64,000 nt of DNA from Chloroflexota bacterium (lineage in GTDB: Bacteria > Chloroflexota > Limnocylindria > Limnocylindrales > CSP1-4), in NCBI GenBank assembly GCA_015478725.1, contig JADMIG010000003.1:62001-126000 (forward strand), given 5' to 3'. Of the stretch, positions 19,975 to 30,461 are shown one piece after another (the first letter of the stretch is position 1; each line of letters starts with the position of its first letter). The translations under genes were made by a program, and so were the position numbers. The notes beneath the pieces were generated by a model. The model had not been told where the DNA came from, searched no databases, and saw only the letters and a list, made by a program, of their open reading frames with translations.

Positions 19975-21687
19975 CTACCGGGCGAGGAGTTCGAGGATGT
20001 TCTGGGTCAGTCGACCGAAGCCGGATACGACGTTGTGGCCGGCGGCGAAGCGGGGGTCGAGCGCCCAGCCCCAGTAGAACGTGCCGCTGGCGAAGATCCG
20101 GGCGCCGTTGGGCAGGACGCGGTAGACGGCCTCCGCCGAGGAGGTGACGCCGCCTCGCGACGGGATGCCGTACGCGCCGGCGACGATCGCCGCGTTCGAG
20201 CCGTTCGCGCCGCCGGCCGCGCCGCCGGTCGCATCCACCTCGCCGCCGGCGAAGAAGCCGAGTGGCGATCCCGGCGCGATCCCGGTGCCGGCAAGCAGGG
20301 CAGGCTCGGGAACTGGGTCGGTCAGGGTGTACGCCGCCATCGCCGTCGTCACATGCTGGTAGGCGACCCCGAAGAGCGAACGCGCCTGGAACCGGCCCAC
20401 GTACGGCCCGAGGTAGGGGCCATTCGGTGGAAACGACGCGATCGCGGCGCCGGCCGCCCCCTCGTTCTCGATGCCCGGCGGGTTCGATCCCTCCGGACTC
20501 GCCGCGGCCGGCTCGCTCGCCCCCGTGCCGCCGTCCGTCGGCCCGCCCACTGTCGGCCCGCCGTCCGCGAGTCCGCCCGGCAGCGGCCCGTTCTTGTAGC
20601 AGGTCACGGTCCGTGGACCGTCGGCGCTCGTCCCGATGAGGGCGACAGGCCAGTAGCCGGTGTCGGCGGCGAAAACGCCGAGCCCCATGTCACCGGCCTG
20701 GAGCACATGGCGCTCGAGCCAGAGGCGGAGCGGCACGCCCCAGTACTCGCTGTGGCCGTTAAAGAGGACCGCGCGCGGCAGCGGCTGGGCTTCGGGCGCG
20801 ACGGACAGGTCGTAGTCCGTCGTGAAGCTCACGTCGAGTCCCTGCCGCTCCATCCACGCGACCATCGGCAGCTCGAGGAAGAAGAGCTGGCCGGCGCCGC
20901 CGTCGGCGGCGTACGGTCGATCGAACGAGACGGCGAGCGCCCGGTTGACGCCCGGGATGGGCTGGCCGACCTTCGTCCGGTAGAGGTCCGAGCCGCCCCA
21001 CGGGTTGTAGGCCTGCCAGTTCAGGGCGCTCGAGACGAGCAGGTAGCGGGTCGCCACGCGGCTCCGGACGACGAACGGGACGTACGACTGGACGTTCTCG
21101 CCGCTCTCGAGCCGGGCGAGGTACATCCCGGACGGCCAGTCGGACGGGATGACGAAGGTCGTCGTGAACGACCACCGTGCACTCACCATCCTCGTCACCG
21201 GGTCGACGATCGGCGCCCCCTGGCGGCCGCCCGGCTGGGACGCGAGGCGGACGACCTCCACGAACGGGTTCTCGGCCGAAGCGGTGCCCGACACGCGGAA
21301 GATCGTCACGGCGTACGTGGAAGCGGTCGTGCTCACCGCGAGGCGCAGCGTTTCGCCGGGCAGATATGACGGTCGCGAGGCGAACCCTTCGACCACGCGG
21401 CCACCACCCTGGAGCTGGTGCAGCTGCCACGGCGCGTCGCCGACGTACGGGAAGACGGGACGATCGAGCGGGATCGTCGCCGCGAGGCCGGGGGTGGCGC
21501 CGGGCGGGAGGACGGCGACCGACGGGAACGACGGGATCGGCGGGAAGGTCGGCGGTCCCGCGGGCGTGGCCTGCTCGGTCCGGGTGAGGACCCCGACCGT
21601 GCCGACGAGCGCGCCGATGGCGATCGCGACGGCGGCGAGGCCGGCGAGCGTGCGGCGGCGAGGCGTTCGGGTCGACGGGGGGTGCAT
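19975..21687 (-). CDS. Exported N,N-dimethylformamidase-like protein
   Basis: Protein of 570 residues. One N-terminal membrane helix (about 12-34) acts as signal or anchor. A beta-rich domain (about 70-190, YLPGETLRLAVS, PSDWPSGMYLARL) leads into the C-terminal domain (about 200-570). Blocks such as VSSALNWQAYNPWGGSDLY, FDRPYA, LPMVAWMERQGLDVSFTTD and NGHSEYWG match the fold of the N,N-dimethylformamidase large subunit. A low-complexity Gly/Pro/Thr insertion of about 45 residues (near 375-420) interrupts the domain. The real substrate is unknown; many relatives are only described as hypothetical. The ATG at 21687 starts just before the signal helix. It is divergent from the esterase gene. Confidence 0.72.
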   Translation of the reverse strand: MHPPSTRTPRRRTLAGLAAVAIAIGALVGTVGVLTRTEQATPAGPPTFPPIPSFPSVAVLPPGATPGLAATIPLDRPVFPYVGDAPWQLHQLQGGGRVVEGFASRPSYLPGETLRLAVSTTASTYAVTIFRVSGTASAENPFVEVVRLASQPGGRQGAPIVDPVTRMVSARWSFTTTFVIPSDWPSGMYLARLESGENVQSYVPFVVRSRVATRYLLVSSALNWQAYNPWGGSDLYRTKVGQPIPGVNRALAVSFDRPYAADGGAGQLFFLELPMVAWMERQGLDVSFTTDYDLSVAPEAQPLPRAVLFNGHSEYWGVPLRLWLERHVLQAGDMGLGVFAADTGYWPVALIGTSADGPRTVTCYKNGPLPGGLADGGPTVGGPTDGGTGASEPAAASPEGSNPPGIENEGAAGAAIASFPPNGPYLGPYVGRFQARSLFGVAYQHVTTAMAAYTLTDPVPEPALLAGTGIAPGSPLGFFAGGEVDATGGAAGGANGSNAAIVAGAYGIPSRGGVTSSAEAVYRVLPNGARIFASGTFYWGWALDPRFAAGHNVVSGFGRLTQNILELLAR

Positions 21688-21811
21688 CGCGCGGCAGCAT
21701 AGCGGGGGAACGGCCGGACCATCGATTCGGGGAGCCGGTGTATCGTTCGAGCCCGTCGGTCGACTCGAGCGACCGCCTCGCGGACCGGCGGCGACGCCAG
21801 GAGCACGAACG

Positions 21812-23509
21812 CTGCGCGCCAGCCTTTCCCGCCTCATCCCCCTCCTGCCGCTCGTGACGGTGGCCGTCGGTGCCGCGATGGTCGCCCTCATGGCGGCGAC
21901 CGGGGCCCTCCTCGGCACCCACGACACGCTCGTCATCATGGGGTTCGACCCGGATCGGGCGGAGTTGATCACGGCACTCCTCGCCGGAGCGATCGGCGCG
22001 GCCGTCGGGACCCTTGTCGTGGATCGACGGCTCGCCGCGACCTTGCTCGGCCTGGCCGCCGCGGCGGCCCTCTTCAGCCAGACGTTCCTCACCGAGACTC
22101 GGGCGGCGATGGCGTCCGGTGGCGACCAGGGGCACTTCTCGCCCGTCGGCTGGTCGCTCACGCTGCTCGCCCTCGTCCTCGGTGGGCTCGCGGCCTCGTG
22201 GGCGGCCGCGGTCGTCGCGGGCGAGGTTCGGGCCGCCGTGGCCGCCTCGGTCTCCGTCGCCGTCGCGGCGGTCCGTGCCCGCACCGTCCGCGGCGTCGGG
22301 ATCTGGCGACCGTTCCTCACCCTCGTCCTCGGCATCGTCGTGGCGGTCGCGGTGCCGGTGCTCGGCGACATGTTCAACTACGCCCCGGATGCGGACATGC
22401 GGGTCGGCGGACCACCGGCGATCGGGCTGTTCGGTGGGGGAGCGGGTGGCGCGGGAGGCTCGCCAGCGCCCTCGGCGGCTCCCGGCGGCGCGACCGGGGG
22501 CGGGTATCTCCCCGGCTCGCCGTACCCAAGCGTCGGCCCCTCGGCGAACGTCGGTCCGTCGGCGAGCGCGGGCGGACCCGGCGCGACCGCGTCGGCGGCC
22601 CCAACGTCCTTGCCCTCCGGCCTCCTGCCGCCGGTCTCGAGCGGCCCCGGCGCGACGAGCTCCGCCCGGCCGTGGCTGGCGAGTCTCCCGTCTGGCAGCG
22701 GCCGCCTCATCGCGAAGATCCATCTGCCGCCGCCGTGGACGAGCGGTGCCGATCCGTACGCCACGCTCACGGTCTACCTGCCACCGGGCTATGACGCCTC
22801 GACCCGCTCCTACCCCGTCATCTACGAGGTTCCGTGGTCGTTCGAGCTGTGGAACCGCTCGATCCAGTTCGCGGGAATGCTCGACACCCTCATCGCCGAG
22901 GGTCGGATCCCGCCGGTCATCGTCGCCTTCGCGGCGACGAACGGCGCGCCGATACCCGACACGGAGTGCGTGAACTCGTCGGACGGGCGTCAACAGATCG
23001 AGACCTACCTCTCGTCGACCGTCGTTCGCTACATGGATTCGACCTTCCGGACGATCCCGAGAGCGGCCGCCCGGGCGCTGTTCGGATTCTCGAGCGGCGC
23101 CTTCTGCGCCCCGATGCTCCTCCTCCGCCACCCGGACGTGTTCGGTCAGGCGATCTCCTTCAGCGGCTACTACCAGGCCGCGATCTCGTCCGGGCCCACA
23201 CTCAACGCCTGGCGGCCGTACGGCGGTGACGCGGCGGCGATCGCCGACCACTCCCCGATCCAGCTCCTCTCGATGCTGCCGCAGACCACCCGACGGTCGC
23301 TCTACTTCGTCGCCTCGGGCGATTCGGCAGAGCCGTTCTACGGCTCGCAGTTCGACGCGTTCGGGGCGGCGCTGCGGGCGAACGGCTACCCCTACCTGCT
23401 CCTGCCGACCAACCTCGGCCACGCCTGGGGTGCCGTCCGGACCGCGTTGCCCCCCGCGCTCGCGGCCGTCGCGGGCCGGTGGGTGACGCTCGGGGTGTTC
23501 GGCCCGTAG
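21812..23509 (+). CDS. Membrane-anchored alpha/beta-hydrolase esterase
   Basis: Protein of about 565 residues. Five to six membrane helices (residues about 5-190) are followed by a Gly/Pro/Ser linker of about 100 residues. An esterase D/enterochelin-esterase-type domain then covers about residues 290-565. LPPGYD and YPVIYEVPWSFELWN mark the first strands, GFSSGAF holds the nucleophile Ser (GxSxG), and NLGHAW near the end carries the catalytic His. The catalytic domain should face outside. No ATG, GTG or TTG lies before the first helix; a CTG at 21812 follows AGGAG at ideal spacing and is used here. A GTG at 21854 would cut into the first helix. The substrate is unknown; surface or corynomycolyl-like acyl transfer is conceivable. 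Confidence 0.75.
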   Translation: MRASLSRLIPLLPLVTVAVGAAMVALMAATGALLGTHDTLVIMGFDPDRAELITALLAGAIGAAVGTLVVDRRLAATLLGLAAAAALFSQTFLTETRAAMASGGDQGHFSPVGWSLTLLALVLGGLAASWAAAVVAGEVRAAVAASVSVAVAAVRARTVRGVGIWRPFLTLVLGIVVAVAVPVLGDMFNYAPDADMRVGGPPAIGLFGGGAGGAGGSPAPSAAPGGATGGGYLPGSPYPSVGPSANVGPSASAGGPGATASAAPTSLPSGLLPPVSSGPGATSSARPWLASLPSGSGRLIAKIHLPPPWTSGADPYATLTVYLPPGYDASTRSYPVIYEVPWSFELWNRSIQFAGMLDTLIAEGRIPPVIVAFAATNGAPIPDTECVNSSDGRQQIETYLSSTVVRYMDSTFRTIPRAAARALFGFSSGAFCAPMLLLRHPDVFGQAISFSGYYQAAISSGPTLNAWRPYGGDAAAIADHSPIQLLSMLPQTTRRSLYFVASGDSAEPFYGSQFDAFGAALRANGYPYLLLPTNLGHAWGAVRTALPPALAAVAGRWVTLGVFGP

Positions 23510-23555
23510 GCGGCCGCGGTCGATCGGTCGTCAGGCGATCGCGGTCAGTCGCTCG

Positions 23556-24929
23556 TCAGGCGGTCCCGCTGACCGTCGCCCAGACGAGGACGACGGACAT
23601 GACCGCGATGACCACCGTGATCGACCAGCCGATCCCGAGGAGCCAGCGGCCACTGGCGAGGTCGCCGAGGATGCGCCGGTCGGACGCGAGGAGCATGACG
23701 AACACGAGGATGAACGGCAGGAGCAGGCCGTTGAGGACCTGCGAGAGGTAGAGGACCTGGATGAGCGGGAGCCCCGGGATGAGGATGAAGAGGGCCGCGA
23801 ACCCAATGAAGAAGGCGAGCAGGCCGTAGAACGCCGGCGCCTCGCGCCAGCGCCAGTCCACGCCGGTCTCCCAGCCGAACGCCTCGCACGCCGTGTAGGC
23901 GCTGGCGAGTGGCACGACCCCGAGGCCGAGCAGTGAGGCGGCGAGGAGGCCGACGGCGAAGAGGACCGTCGCGGCGTCGCCGGCCAGCGGCCCGAGCGCC
24001 CGGGCGGCCTGGGCGACGTCTGTGATGCCCGTCTGGCCGGACGCCCACAGCGTCGCCGCACAGGCCACCACGATGAACCCGGCGACGACGTTCGTGATGA
24101 GCGAGCCGAGGCCGACATCGAGGCGGGTCGTGTTGATGTCCTCGGGACCGAGGCGCTTGTCCACGACATACGCCTGGATGAACGCCTGGCCCCACGGCGT
24201 GATGGTCGTCCCGACCGTGCCGACGACGGCGAGCCAGTAGGCCGGGGCCGCGGAGAGGTGCGGGACGACGAGCGCCGACGCGGCGGCGCCCCAGTCCGGT
24301 CGCGACAGGATGGCCGAGACGATATACGCGACTGAGACCGCCACCCCGATCCCGACGAAGGCCCACTGGACCCGGCCGTAGCTGCCGCGCGAGATGAGGG
24401 CCACCACGGCGACCGAGGCGAGGGCCGCGCTCACCGGGATCGGCACGCCGAAGAGGCCGAGGGCGGCGCCGATGCCGGCGAACTCGGCGATGATCGTGCC
24501 GAGGTTCGCGACGAGCATGGTGATGACGAAGAACGTCGCCCAGCGAACGCCGAACCGCTCGCGCGTGAGGCCGGTCAGGCCCTGACCGGTCGCGAGGCCG
24601 AGCCGGGCCCCCACTTCCTGGGTGAAGAAGAGAGCGATCTGGCTCGCGAGGATGACCCACAGGAGGGCGTAGCCGAACTGGATCCCGGCGAGCGAATACG
24701 TCGCGATGCCGCCCGCGTCGTTGTCGGCGAAACCGCTGACGAGCCCCGGACCGAGAACGCCGAGGACGGCCGCGAACCGGATCCGCCATGCCGGCGTCCG
24801 CCGGAACGCGGGCAGGACGCGGCGACGTGCCGAATCGACGTTCGGGCCGATGCGCCCGAGGTGGGACCCACCCGGACCGGGCTCGGCGCCGGTCAGCTCG
24901 GAGCCGCCGTTCGGCTCGGCGCCGGTCAC
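23556..24929 (-). CDS. NRAMP-family transporter with altered metal site, possibly for Mg2+
   Basis: Protein of 457 residues with about 11 membrane helices and the NRAMP/SLC11 fold. In helix 1 the classic DPGN is replaced by DNDAGG (69-74). In helix 6 the metal-selecting Met of the usual MPH motif is absent; the stretch reads TTITPWGQAF (241-250). Loss of that Met is a known feature of NRAMP-related magnesium transporters (NRMTs). The start overlaps the stop of the MgtE-like sensor gene by 4 nt, which supports Mg2+ or a similar hard divalent ion. An N-terminal Gly/Pro-rich tail of about 45 residues precedes helix 1. Mn2+ transport cannot be excluded from sequence alone. Confidence 0.85.
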   Translation of the reverse strand: MTGAEPNGGSELTGAEPGPGGSHLGRIGPNVDSARRRVLPAFRRTPAWRIRFAAVLGVLGPGLVSGFADNDAGGIATYSLAGIQFGYALLWVILASQIALFFTQEVGARLGLATGQGLTGLTRERFGVRWATFFVITMLVANLGTIIAEFAGIGAALGLFGVPIPVSAALASVAVVALISRGSYGRVQWAFVGIGVAVSVAYIVSAILSRPDWGAAASALVVPHLSAAPAYWLAVVGTVGTTITPWGQAFIQAYVVDKRLGPEDINTTRLDVGLGSLITNVVAGFIVVACAATLWASGQTGITDVAQAARALGPLAGDAATVLFAVGLLAASLLGLGVVPLASAYTACEAFGWETGVDWRWREAPAFYGLLAFFIGFAALFILIPGLPLIQVLYLSQVLNGLLLPFILVFVMLLASDRRILGDLASGRWLLGIGWSITVVIAVMSVVLVWATVSGTA

Positions 24930-26197
24930 GCCGTCCCTCCGCCACGACTGCCGGGCCGGAGGGGCAGCCGCGTTCGGGAGTCGGGGACCACCGCTTCGAT
25001 GACGTCGTCCACCGTGACGATCCCCACCAGACGCTCGTCGGGATCGACCACGGGGACGGCGAGGAGGTTGTACCGCGAGACGATCTCGGCGACGTGCTCC
25101 CGATCGTCCGACGTCCGCACTGCGGCCGGCTCGCGGATCATGACATCAGCGATTTGTGCCTCCGGGCGAGCGACGATGAGGTCGCGCAGGGAGAGGACGC
25201 CAACGAGCCGTCCCTCCTCGTCCGCCACGTAGACGTAGTAGATCGTCTCGGCGTCCGGCTCGAGCTCGCGCAGGCGGTCGATCGTCTCGGCCGCGGTGAG
25301 GGTCGCCGGAACCGAGACGAACTCGGTCGTCATGAGCCCGCCGGCCGTGTCCTCGGCATAGCCGAGGAGCTCCTCGACCTCGGCCTTCTCGTCGGATTCC
25401 ATGTGGGCGAGGATGCGATCGCGGGTGATCTCGTCGAGATCCGCCACGAGATCGGCGGCGTCGTCCGGGCTCATCTCCTCGAGGATGTCCGCCGCCCGCT
25501 CGGGGCTCAGGTCCTCGAGGACCTCGACCTGGCTCTCCGGCTCCATCTCCTCGATCGCGTCGGCGGCCGCCTCATCGTCGAGGGAGGCGAGGACGCCGGC
25601 CCGGTCGCGCGGGGCGAGCTGGTCGAGGATCGTCGCGAGGTCCGCCGGGTGGAGCTCGGCGAGGCCCTGGTGCGGGACGCGGAGCTTGATCGAGGCAATC
25701 GAGGTCTCGACCGGGTCCACGTCCTCCCAGTCGATGTACTTCTCGGGGACCGGTCGGCTCAGGTTGCGGGCGATCGTCCGGAACGGGCCCTCGATGCCGA
25801 GGCGGCGAAGGAGTCCGGCCCCGCCGACGTCCACCGCGACGAGGTGCCACGCCCCACCGACCTCGTCGAGGCGGAGATCGTTGACCCGGACGACCTTCCG
25901 GCCGTCGATGTCGACGATCTGCTTGTCCATGAGGTCCGCCCGGAGGAGGATCTCGTTCGGGCGCTGGCGGAACTTGTCGATGTCGATCGTGCGGGTCCGG
26001 AGCTGGGCGCCGGACGCGTCGAGCCGGGCGACGGACGACCACGGCACGAAGATGCGGCGACGGTCCGTCTGCACGACGAGGCCGGTGACCGGCGGATAGC
26101 GGTCGCCGACGGCGACGATGAGATCGGCGATGCGGCCCATCGGCTCGTCCTGCCGATCCTGGACGGGCCGGCCGATGGCCTGGCTCAGATACAGCAT
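24926..26197 (-). CDS. Soluble MgtE-like sensor: PRC barrel, MgtE_N and CBS pair, no membrane domain
   Basis: Protein of 423 residues. Residues about 1-135 contain one or two PRC-barrel units (GRPVQDRQDEPMGRIADLIV, then a second VVRVNDLRLDEV block). Residues about 170-275 match the acidic helical MgtE N-domain (HPADLATILDQL, then repeated SPERAADILEEM-type helices). Two CBS domains (about 280-410) follow. In MgtE channels these parts bind Mg2+ and close the pore, but here the transmembrane part is missing and the protein ends after the CBS pair. The next gene, overlapping by 4 nt, is an NRAMP-type transporter, which probably takes the place of the pore. Its leader contains mutually exclusive hairpins at 26437-26521. 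Confidence 0.88.
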   Translation of the reverse strand: MLYLSQAIGRPVQDRQDEPMGRIADLIVAVGDRYPPVTGLVVQTDRRRIFVPWSSVARLDASGAQLRTRTIDIDKFRQRPNEILLRADLMDKQIVDIDGRKVVRVNDLRLDEVGGAWHLVAVDVGGAGLLRRLGIEGPFRTIARNLSRPVPEKYIDWEDVDPVETSIASIKLRVPHQGLAELHPADLATILDQLAPRDRAGVLASLDDEAAADAIEEMEPESQVEVLEDLSPERAADILEEMSPDDAADLVADLDEITRDRILAHMESDEKAEVEELLGYAEDTAGGLMTTEFVSVPATLTAAETIDRLRELEPDAETIYYVYVADEEGRLVGVLSLRDLIVARPEAQIADVMIREPAAVRTSDDREHVAEIVSRYNLLAVPVVDPDERLVGIVTVDDVIEAVVPDSRTRLPLRPGSRGGGTA

Positions 26198-26436
26198 GTG
26201 CCACCTCGCGGGCGGGTCCGTCCCGCCGGGGTGGCCGGTCCGCCGCCGGCCGGGATCGGGCCGGGTGGCGGTTCAGCCGTCAGCGTGGACGGATCGGGTG
26301 GGTGTCCATGGCGCGCGGGCTCGAGCGTTGACGCGGGGGCTCTCGGGTCCGGTACTGGGTCCGGTCTCCACCGGCAGAGGGTCCTCCGAACGACGTGGGC
26401 GACTCCGACGAACGGCACGCGGCGGAGCGAGCCGCG

Positions 26437-26521
26437 CTCGACGGGAGCCGCGTCGAGTGTAGCCGCGAGCACCGGAGGCTCGCAAGGTAGCCGCACCTCG
26501 GTGGCGCGCCGAGCTTGCGAG
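26437..26521 (-). other. Structured leader with mutually exclusive hairpins
   Basis: In minus-strand order, CTCGCAAG (26521-26514) can pair with CTTGCGAG (26486-26479). The overlapping GCGAGC (26483-26478) can instead pair with GCTCGC (26470-26465). A separate stem CTCGACG/CGTCGAG (26457-26437) follows. It lies 240-320 nt before the MgtE-like start, as expected for an ion-responsive leader. It does not match the M-box or yybP-ykoY consensus I know. The rest of the 26198-26742 gap holds only the palindrome listed next. Confidence 0.4.
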
Positions 26522-26534
26522 GGGTCGCAGGATC

Positions 26535-26563
26535 GTGCATCGGTGAACCATTCACGGATGAAC
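26535..26563. promoter_or_regulatory. 29-bp imperfect palindrome, candidate operator
   Basis: Arms GTGCATCGGTGAAC (26535-26548) and ATTCACGGATGAAC (26550-26563) match 11 of 14 positions around one central base. A closely related palindrome occurs at 55978-56006. It could control the MgtE-like gene (minus) or the GAF-GGDEF gene (plus). Confidence 0.45.
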
Positions 26564-26742
26564 AACTCTTCACCTGGCGGGTCCCTGCCCGCCGGGCCTG
26601 CGAGCGGCCGCTCCCGCGAACGTCCCCTGCCCGCCGCGCGCCGGCTTGCGACGCGCCGTGAAGCGGGGTACGTTCGGACCCACCAGTGTGGTACATCAGC
26701 GGAGGCGTAGGCGCACCACAGAGGTGACACGCTGCGATCCAC

Positions 26743-29001
26743 ATGAGCGCGCATCTCGATCCGGTCCGAGCCGGGTTCCGGGCCCTCGGCGGTCTCCTCG
26801 CGCCGCCGCACGCGCGACCCGACGCCCCGGGGTCGGCGATCGTGGAGGTGCCGACCGCCGTCGCTCCCGCACCGACCGACGCCGCTGCCGCCCCCGCGCC
26901 GACCGCGCCGCCGATCGCTCCCGTGGCGGAGGGCATCAGTGATCGGATCGAGGCGGTGCTCGACATCGCCGGGCGGCTCACCCGGACATTCGATCAGACC
27001 GAGATCATCCAGACGGTGGTCGACGAGACCCTTCGCGTGCTCGGCGGCGACGGAGTGGCGATCCGAATGCTCCACGGCGACAGGCTCGAGGTGGTCGCGA
27101 CGGCCGGGCTGGCGCCGCACGTCGCGCGCCGCCTGCCGATCATCGCTGCGAACGAGGGCTGGTTCGGCGAGGTCGTTCGAAGCGGACGGCCATGGGTCTG
27201 CGACGACGTGCGCACGGTCTCCGCCGCCGGACCCGCCGCCGTCGGACCCGCCGCGGAGCTCTACCGCCGGTACGTCGACGTGCACCCGTTCGCTGCCGAT
27301 CTCGTGGTGCCCCTCGTCGGCAACGGTCGAGTGATCGGGGCCATCAGCGTCGTGCGGGACGAGCCCTACCACTGGCCTGCCGCCGACGTGGAGTTCGTCT
27401 CCATGCTCGCCACGCACGCCTCGATCGCCATCCAGAACGCCAAGCTCTTCCAGCGCGCGGAGGCCCGCGCCGGCCGGATGGCGGTCCTCCAGGCCGCCTC
27501 GGCTCGGTTGAACCGCGAGAACACCGTGGAGTCCGTGGGCCGTGCCCTGGTCGAGGAGACGCGCGGGATCATCGACTACCACAACGCCCGGGTCTACCTC
27601 CTCGAGCCACCGGATCTGCTCGTCCCGATCGCCTTCGCCGGCTCGGTGGGCGAGTACGAGAAGGTCGACATGGAGGTCCTTCGGACCCGCCTCGGTGAGG
27701 GCTTCACCGGCTGGGTGGCGGAGCATGGAGAGGCGCTGCTCATCGGCGATGCCAACGCCGATGCTCGGGGCGTGACGATCGCCGGCACGGACGATGTCGA
27801 CGAATCGATGCTCGTCGTGCCGATGCGCTACGACGATCGGGTCATCGGCGCGGTCACCCTCTCGAAGCTCGGACTGGAACAGTTCGGCGAGGAGGACCTG
27901 CAGCTCCTCACGATCCTCGCCGATCAGGCGGCGACGGCCGTCGAATCCGCGCGGCTCCTCGTCCGGACGCAGGGCCTGGCCGGCGAGCTTCGCCGGCTCC
28001 TCGACATGAGCAGCGAGCTCGCCCGAAGCCTCGATCCCGGGACCGTCGCCCATCTCATCGCCATGCACCTCGTGGAGGCGCTCGATGTCGACGAGTGCAC
28101 GATCAGCTACTGGGATCGGCCCGGCGAACGGATCCTCACCTCCGGCTCGTTCAGCCGCGACGGGGTTGGCGCACCGGAGACGGAGTACACGCTGGTGGGA
28201 TTCCCCGCCACGCGACGCGTACTCGAGCGCCAGGAGACGATGTTCGTCGACGTCGACGATCCAGCCGCCGACCAGGCGGAGGTCGCGATCCTCCGCGACG
28301 AGGGCCGGCGCTCGCTCGTCATGATCCCGCTCGTCGCGAAGGGCGAGTCCATCGGCCTCGTCGAGCTCACGTCGACGAAGGCGGTTTCATTCGATCCGGG
28401 GCGCCTCGCGCTCGTGCGGACGATGGCGAACGAGGGGGCGATGGCACTCGAGAACGCCAAGCTCTACGAAACCGCGCGTCGGCTCGCCGATCACGACCAG
28501 CTGACCGGGTTCGTCAACCACCGCTTTCTCCACGAGCGGGTCGGCGAAGAGATCGTCCGCGCCCAGCGAGGGCGAACCTCGCTCAGCCTCCTCATGATCG
28601 ACCTCGACGACTTCAAGCTCGTGAACGACAACTTCGGCCACCTCTTCGGGGACCGGGTCCTCGTGTGGGCGGCCGACATCATCCGCTCGTCCCTTCGCGC
28701 ATCGGACGTGCCGGCCCGCTACGGGGGCGACGAATTCGCGGTCATCCTCCCGGACACGGACTCCTCCGCCGCCGCAGCGGTCGCCGATCGGATCCGGACC
28801 GCGTTCCGTGAGCAGGCGTTCGAATCCGCGTCGCGGGGGTCCGTCCCGGTCGCCGCGTCCATCGGGATGGCAACCTTCCCGGCGGCCGGACGGACCGGTC
28901 AGGACCTCATCGCGGTCGCCGATGCGGCGCTCTACCGGGCCAAGGACAGCGGTCGAAACGTGGAGCCGGCGCGGGCCGCCCCCCGGGGCGACGCCGCCTG
29001 A
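26743..29001 (+). CDS. Diguanylate cyclase with three GAF domains
   Basis: Soluble protein of 752 residues. A disordered Pro/Ala stretch (about 25-60) is followed by three GAF-type sensor domains (about 65-235, 240-410 and 415-580) and a GGDEF domain (about 585-740). The active site GGDEF is at 661-665, and RASD five residues upstream is an intact inhibitory RxxD site, so it should make c-di-GMP under product control. No EAL domain is present. The GAF ligands are unknown. The ATG at 26743 is used, although the best purine-rich stretch (GAGGTGA) is about 18 nt upstream. The downstream gene at 29088 encodes another cyclase, 86 bp away. Confidence 0.92.
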   Translation: MSAHLDPVRAGFRALGGLLAPPHARPDAPGSAIVEVPTAVAPAPTDAAAAPAPTAPPIAPVAEGISDRIEAVLDIAGRLTRTFDQTEIIQTVVDETLRVLGGDGVAIRMLHGDRLEVVATAGLAPHVARRLPIIAANEGWFGEVVRSGRPWVCDDVRTVSAAGPAAVGPAAELYRRYVDVHPFAADLVVPLVGNGRVIGAISVVRDEPYHWPAADVEFVSMLATHASIAIQNAKLFQRAEARAGRMAVLQAASARLNRENTVESVGRALVEETRGIIDYHNARVYLLEPPDLLVPIAFAGSVGEYEKVDMEVLRTRLGEGFTGWVAEHGEALLIGDANADARGVTIAGTDDVDESMLVVPMRYDDRVIGAVTLSKLGLEQFGEEDLQLLTILADQAATAVESARLLVRTQGLAGELRRLLDMSSELARSLDPGTVAHLIAMHLVEALDVDECTISYWDRPGERILTSGSFSRDGVGAPETEYTLVGFPATRRVLERQETMFVDVDDPAADQAEVAILRDEGRRSLVMIPLVAKGESIGLVELTSTKAVSFDPGRLALVRTMANEGAMALENAKLYETARRLADHDQLTGFVNHRFLHERVGEEIVRAQRGRTSLSLLMIDLDDFKLVNDNFGHLFGDRVLVWAADIIRSSLRASDVPARYGGDEFAVILPDTDSSAAAAVADRIRTAFREQAFESASRGSVPVAASIGMATFPAAGRTGQDLIAVADAALYRAKDSGRNVEPARAAPRGDAA

Positions 29002-29087
29002 GCGGTACCTTCGTACCATGCGGGGCCGCCAAAGGTACCCCCCTCGCCGTCTGGACCCTCGCCCCCGGACCTCGCATGCTGTGATCC

Positions 29088-30461
29088 GTGAGCGAGGCCT
29101 CCACGAGCCGTCCGTCCGATCATGTCGTCGAGGATCGGGCGATCCGTCGCTCCTCCTGGCTCCTCTCCGGTTCGTTCCTCATCCTCGGGCTGGTCACCGT
29201 CATCCGGCTCTTCGCCGGGACTCCCCGTCCGGTCGACTGGTTCGTCGGCCTCCTCGTCCTGGTGGCCGGGTTCGCCGTGGCGATGCACCGATCGGCCGTG
29301 GGCTCGCTCGAGGCCGAGCGTCGATCGGAGGCGGAGAGCTTCGCCCGGGTGTTTCGCGGCCTTTCACGATCCATCTCGCCGGACGCCATCGTCGACGCGA
29401 TCGTGGAGGAGCTCGGCGTGGGGACGAATGCGGACCACACGGTCGTCGTTCGGCTCCGACCGGAATCCGACGCCCTCGAGGCGACGCTCGTCAGCCGGCG
29501 CCCCGGTGTCCCGAGTTCGACCACGATCCTTCCGCGATCCGATCTCGAGGATCCGGGGGCGAACCCGATCCGACTCGAGCGCCTTCCGGTCGCGATCCCG
29601 GTGGGGACGCTGCAGCCGGTGGGCGTCGGGAGACCTGCCGCGCCGCCGGGGATTGTGGGGGTCCTCGGAGCCGTGGCGGCCATCCGGGCCTTCGGGGCGA
29701 CGACCGTCCCGCCATCGGCGAGCGGCGCATGGGACGGACCTGAGGCGCGGATCGCGGCCCGCATCGCCCGTCGCGTCCGCGACGTGTACGGCCTCAGGCA
29801 CACGATCGAGGCTCCGCTCGTGACGTCCTCCGGAACGGTCGGCGCTATCGTCCTCTCGAGGCGTTCGGAGGACCCCTGGACGGGATCGGCCGGGCGGATC
29901 CTGGCCGGGGCCGCGGTCGAGGCGTCGGCCGCCCTCGAGCGGGCGTACTCGCACCGGGCGGCGGAGGCGCGCGCGTCCACCGACGCGCTGACGGGGCTGC
30001 CGAATCGGCGCTACTTCGATGAGTTCTGCGGCCTGCTCGCACGCCGGCGCCGTGCGGACGACGTACTCGGCGTCCTCATGATCGACATCGACCACTTCAA
30101 GCGTCTCAACGACACGTACGGGCATGCTACGGGCGACGAGGTCCTGCGGTCCGTCGCGGGGGCCATCGCGGCCGCTGTCCGGACGGACGACGTGCCGGCC
30201 CGCTTCGGCGGCGAGGAATTCGCCATCCTCCTCCGGGACCCGAGCCCGTCGATCGCGGCGGAGGTGGGTGAACGGGTACGGACAGCGGTCGCCGAGCTCG
30301 ACCTCGATCTCCTCCACGGCTCACGGGTCACGGTCTCGGTGGGCGTCGCGGTCTCCGTCGCGCCGGCCGAACCGATCGACGAGGTCATCGCCGCCGCCGA
30401 TCGGGCGCTCTACGCGGCGAAGCGCGCCGGCCGGAATCGGGTGGTCGTCGGGCCGCTCTGA
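29088..30461 (+). CDS. Membrane-anchored diguanylate cyclase
   Basis: Protein of 457 residues from a GTG start. Two membrane helices (about 24-43 and 48-67) form an anchor. A GAF-like region (about 80-285) follows, then a GGDEF domain (about 295-455). The active site reads GGEEF (374-378), a normal active variant, and RTDD before it is an RxxD inhibitory site. It probably forms a unit with the GAF cyclase just upstream. No EAL domain is present. The sensor region has poor similarity to known GAF patterns, so its ligand cannot be guessed. Confidence 0.9.
   Translation: MSEASTSRPSDHVVEDRAIRRSSWLLSGSFLILGLVTVIRLFAGTPRPVDWFVGLLVLVAGFAVAMHRSAVGSLEAERRSEAESFARVFRGLSRSISPDAIVDAIVEELGVGTNADHTVVVRLRPESDALEATLVSRRPGVPSSTTILPRSDLEDPGANPIRLERLPVAIPVGTLQPVGVGRPAAPPGIVGVLGAVAAIRAFGATTVPPSASGAWDGPEARIAARIARRVRDVYGLRHTIEAPLVTSSGTVGAIVLSRRSEDPWTGSAGRILAGAAVEASAALERAYSHRAAEARASTDALTGLPNRRYFDEFCGLLARRRRADDVLGVLMIDIDHFKRLNDTYGHATGDEVLRSVAGAIAAAVRTDDVPARFGGEEFAILLRDPSPSIAAEVGERVRTAVAELDLDLLHGSRVTVSVGVAVSVAPAEPIDEVIAAADRALYAAKRAGRNRVVVGPL

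Follow-up and report, generated by a model that had tools for sequence, protein, structure and literature searches.

A Chloroflexota gene pair of an NRMT-type transporter and a pore-less MgtE-derived partner, a likely case of feedback gating of Mg2+ and/or Mn2+ uptake

Why should a Mg2+ sensor that is normally built into the MgtE channel be encoded as a protein of its own, directly ahead of a transporter with an unrelated fold? The question is raised by a window of 64,000 nucleotides (nt) from a Chloroflexota bacterium (NCBI GenBank assembly GCA_015478725.1, contig JADMIG010000003.1, positions 62,001 to 126,000), in which two minus-strand open reading frames (ORFs), 26197-24926 (423 amino acids, aa; ATG start) and 24929-23556 (457 aa; GTG start), encode an MgtE-like protein, here called the partner, and a transporter of the NRMT (NRAMP-related Mg2+ transporter) type. 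The two genes overlap by 4 nt, as the initial annotation of this DNA had it, the GTG start of the transporter gene lying over the stop codon of the partner gene (GTGA). We consider it rather probable that the locus is a two-gene unit in which the MgtE-derived cytoplasmic partner confers Mg2+ feedback gating on the NRMT, with a specificity that is better worded as Mg2+ and/or Mn2+.

The domain content of the partner (24926..26197, minus strand, as for all features of the pair) is that of the cytoplasmic part of MgtE with an N-terminal extension. Pfam detects a single PRC-barrel domain (PF05239, residues 2-56; 26030..26194), followed by an MgtE_N domain (residues 182-283, 4.2e-27; 25349..25654) and two CBS domains (8.8e-21; residues 287-404, 24986..25339), and a second PRC-like strand block appears in the structural model at residues ~80-125. 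The partner contains no channel helices (hydrophobicity peak of 1.24 in a 19-residue window, against the 1.6 required) and is predicted to be soluble. The earlier description of this gene as MgtE_N, CBS and PRC without channel helices thus holds, its second PRC coming from the model. In a search of solved structures, residues 173-405 matched the cytosolic domain of Thermus MgtE (TtMgtE) with 177 bits, and the identity to the MgtE cytosolic domain is 45-47%; the NCBIfam mgtE equivalog score (213 bits) lies under the cut-off of 232.75. The model, built with 21 relatives, has a mean predicted local distance difference test score (pLDDT) of 82 and a predicted template-modelling score (pTM) of 0.55, so that domain packing is uncertain; it shows a strand-rich N-terminal region, and its MgtE-matching part superposes on the Mg2+-bound MgtE cytosolic domain 2yvy with a TM-score of 0.84 (target-normalised).

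The numbering of TtMgtE in our alignment was verified by its published ATP-site residues Y170, R187, D188 and F227 (PMC5529423). Partner residues D245 and D249 (MgtE_N) and D365, E367 and D398 (CBS pair) are the same residues as TtMgtE D91, D95, D214, E216 and D247, and at the nucleotide site Y321, R338 and D339, all within the CBS pair, are those of TtMgtE Y170, R187 and D188. Substitutions affect E59 (Asp, D213 in MgtE_N of the partner), D226 (Asn), D250 (Glu) and F227 (Leu). Among the aligned relatives, the acidic residue is conserved at the D91 position in 41/41, at the D247 position in 40/40 and at the D95 position in 38/41. These acidic positions of TtMgtE lie at the interface of the N domain and the CBS domains, and we take them to be Mg2+-binding sites of MgtE. 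Compared with the MgtE channel (2yvx, 2zy9, 5x9h), the partner shares the N domain, the CBS pair, the acidic interface positions and most of the ATP-site residues, but it has neither plug helix nor pore, carries the PRC region at its N-terminus and a basic tail at its C-terminus, and holds Leu for F227. The tail (24929..24985) follows the CBS pair at the place where MgtE runs on into the plug helix; in the relatives it forms a conserved basic motif, W-K-K/R-R-L-P-R (e.g., TAWKKRLPRLFAR), reduced here to RTRLPLRPGSR. Since the MgtE pore domain (PF01769) has no match in the source genome, which is 96% complete, and the pore-less form is conserved, we rejected the idea that the partner is the remnant of a broken MgtE.

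The downstream protein (23556..24929) belongs to the Nramp family (Pfam, 1.2e-86), and the site signature that places it among the NRMTs can be read directly from its sequence. The position of the DPGN motif in helix 1 holds D71-A-G-G74 (within DNDAGG; 24708..24719, aligned to EleNRMT D55-G58), and helix 6 reads T241-T-I-T244-P-W246 (24192..24209, aligned to EleNRMT T224-W229), with Thr at the position of the MntH Met and Trp at that of EleNRMT W229. The replacement of DxxN and A(C)xxM by DxxG and TxxA/T defines NRMTs, and EleNRMT transports Mn2+ as well as Mg2+, independently of H+ (Ramanadane et al., 2022, PMC8806188); D71AGG74 together with T241TIT244 is such a signature. EleNRMT (7qia) is also the best solved relative (302 bits, vs. 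116 bits for DraMntH), sharing the DxxG-TxxA/T site, the missing helix-6 Met and the Trp after the helix-6 motif, and differing in A227, where the window transporter has T244. The NCBIfam MntH score is 155 bits against a cut-off of 430. With MntH/NRAMP proteins (DraMntH, EcoMntH) the transporter has the LeuT-type NRAMP fold in common, whereas their DPGN and AxxM sites are replaced, and a tree of 37 rows, with a small reference set in which MntH is represented by 2 rows, separates MntH from all others including EleNRMT with 100/100 support. Motif, scores and tree led us to reject the canonical Mn2+ transporter MntH as an identity for this protein. Hence, what the initial annotation had seen in the second gene, an NRAMP protein with DNDAGG for DPGN and no helix-6 Met, was correct, and the protein does not cluster with the Mn2+ carriers; within the SLC11/NRAMP superfamily it probably acts as a Mg2+/Mn2+ transporter that is not H+-coupled.

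The pairing of the two genes is real and both strongly and widely conserved. In 121 genomes of the source's class we found 80 full-length partner matches, and 73 of them are immediately followed, in the same orientation, by an NRMT match at a median gap of 54 bases, which answers positively the question of whether the pair persists in relatives. Five of the seven partners without an NRMT neighbour sit ~20-320 bases from a contig end, another precedes the beginning of an NRMT that is cut short at NDAG, and for the last the next 4 kb contain no NRMT. (At L005:5184-5560 an NRMT frame stops right past the helix-1 NDAG and enters unrelated sequence, either a truncation or an assembly junction.) Partner-NRMT pairs also occur on contigs of Bacteroidota, Bacillota and Actinomycetota; on the actinobacterial contigs L044, L048, L050 and L052 the partner and the adjoining NRMT lie face to face on opposite strands. 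Moreover, the phylum survey revealed several genomes in which partner and NRMT share one frame, parted by a stop codon alone. In one genome (L058:894-3449, minus strand) the two are joined in an uninterrupted frame of 852 aa, of which residues 12-426 are the partner and residues 427-844 the transporter. This natural fusion is known from one fragmented genome assembly, where an assembly or base-call error is possible; as read from its sequence, it favours a physical coupling of partner and NRMT, and it offers a single-chain construct for probing the partner's role.

Such pairs have been known since 2014, and the initial annotation was mistaken in holding that a dedicated MgtE-like partner had not been described: Shin et al. 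(2014, PMC4072509) reported that most NrmT genes adjoin a gene for an MgtE cytoplasmic domain and proposed a cytoplasmic feedback regulation by this partner. The Clostridium acetobutylicum Ca_c0685 operon and Acidobacterium capsulatum Acp2976-Acp2977 are of the same pair type, and what defines their partner, a separate pore-less homologue of the MgtE N-terminal cytoplasmic part adjoining nrmT, is present in our window; the latter differs in its Chloroflexota lineage and in having no M-box riboswitch. Our locus is therefore a further example and no discovery. It adds a count of the pairing across the class, the natural fusion (a single-chain form absent from the passages of Shin et al. consulted), acidic interface positions that have been kept, a short basic tail standing in for the plug helix, and a genome without an MgtE pore or CorA match. 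Apart from Shin et al. (2014), our literature search, which covered subscription journals in small part, returned Ramanadane et al. (2022) as the sole other relevant paper, and the passages of PMC8806188 consulted mention no partner for EleNRMT.

The genomic setting bears on the role of the pair. Because the flanking long ORFs (21149-23509 and 26743-29001) sit on the plus strand, the ORF layout suggests that the pair is transcribed as a separate unit. The source genome yielded no CorA match, and its P-type ATPases score well under the MgtA cut-off; since an MgtE pore match is also missing, the pair is a good candidate for a main Mg2+ uptake route, as far as absences in an incomplete assembly can indicate. 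The P-type ATPase matches on contigs C50 and C52 have the same scores and the same frame lengths, and may reflect duplication or redundancy in that part of the assembly. A second NRAMP relative of the genome (L002:1306-2673, contig C51) holds DDDPSG/GTTISPY and has no MgtE-like partner; judged by sequence, it is a distant relative, neither a canonical MntH nor a typical NRMT.

From this material we infer the following mechanism, in which feedback gating is likely. The partner would dock as a dimer onto the NRMT from the cytoplasmic side. Mg2+ in the cytoplasm would fill the acidic N-CBS interface, perhaps with nucleotide tuning the response; the filled partner would then close into the compact state described for MgtE, and the closed partner would inhibit the NRMT, giving product feedback on Mg2+ uptake. 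If so, one Mg2+ sensor would gate two unrelated transport folds, and metal sensing would be movable between transporters. A bolder version, which we hold tentatively and at somewhat less than even chances, makes the MgtE sensor a portable regulatory cassette, split off from its channel and now serving a transporter of the unrelated LeuT-type fold as a stoichiometric gating subunit, docking through the basic C-terminal tail in place of the plug helix and fused to the transporter in at least one lineage.

Several observations weigh against feedback gating of Mg2+ uptake. The partner has no plug helix, and this is the element that joins sensor to pore in MgtE. The genome also encodes a CNNM/CorC-type protein. 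No M-box riboswitch was found in positions 20000-30000 of the window at E<=1, nor in 16 relatives at the gathering score, so that an M-box or other riboswitch upstream of the pair was rejected; in the report of Shin et al. (2014, PMC4072509) an M-box precedes many NrmT-partner loci, not all, and A. capsulatum is without one. In the same study the C. acetobutylicum proteins transported Mg2+ without need of the partner, while the A. capsulatum transporter rescued a Mn2+-uptake defect fully and a Mg2+ defect only partly, at low millimolar concentrations, and co-expression of its partner, the one such experiment published, gave no better Mg2+ rescue; this pair was shown to carry chiefly Mn2+. Membership of the NRMT clade would thus be no guarantee of high-affinity Mg2+ transport, as A. 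capsulatum shows.

This last case is a reason to ask whether the pair handles Mn2+, with the NRMT acting chiefly as a Mn2+ importer and the partner sensing Mn2+, or Mg2+ as a proxy, without a Mg2+ feedback loop. EleNRMT, too, carries Mn2+ besides Mg2+ (PMC8806188), and the other NRAMP relative of the genome, not being a canonical MntH, leaves Mn2+ uptake with no other assigned importer. However, the NRMT lacks the Met that serves as a transition-metal ligand in helix 6, the partner keeps the MgtE-type acidic positions, and in a genome without MgtE or CorA matches few candidates for Mg2+ import remain; we regard such a chiefly Mn2+-related role as unlikely, though by no means negligible.

The ineffective co-expression in A. 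capsulatum (PMC4072509) would also fit a partner that is no allosteric gate but serves the NRMT as a metal chaperone or buffer, as a scaffold or as a stability factor; chaperone activity was raised as an alternative by Shin et al. (2014), and both the PRC-barrel region, which MgtE does not have, and the lost plug helix agree with it. Such a role seems improbable to us, given that the N-CBS architecture is complete and most residues of the interface remain, beyond what a buffer needs. That the two genes are mere neighbours without functional coupling is hardly credible. The opposite-strand arrangement in some actinobacterial loci, and the two partners of the class whose want of an intact adjoining NRMT is not due to contig ends, speak for it, but same-strand pairing in 73/80 across the families of the class, the pairs in other phyla and the natural fusion largely refute it.

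The pair also varies in its transporter. Partners 71-80% identical to that of the window precede NRMTs of two lineages: the first carries ADNDAGG/GTTITPW and shares ~65-75% identity with the NRMT of the window (loci L004, L009, L012, L016 and L032), the second carries AGNDAGG/GTTITPY and shares ~45% (L007, L014, L018, L021 and L022). It thus seems, from these comparisons, that the transporter was swapped beneath a stable partner. In addition, two tandem NRMT genes lie downstream of a single partner at L027:4333-6970 and on contigs C38 (genome G120) and C123 (genome G088).
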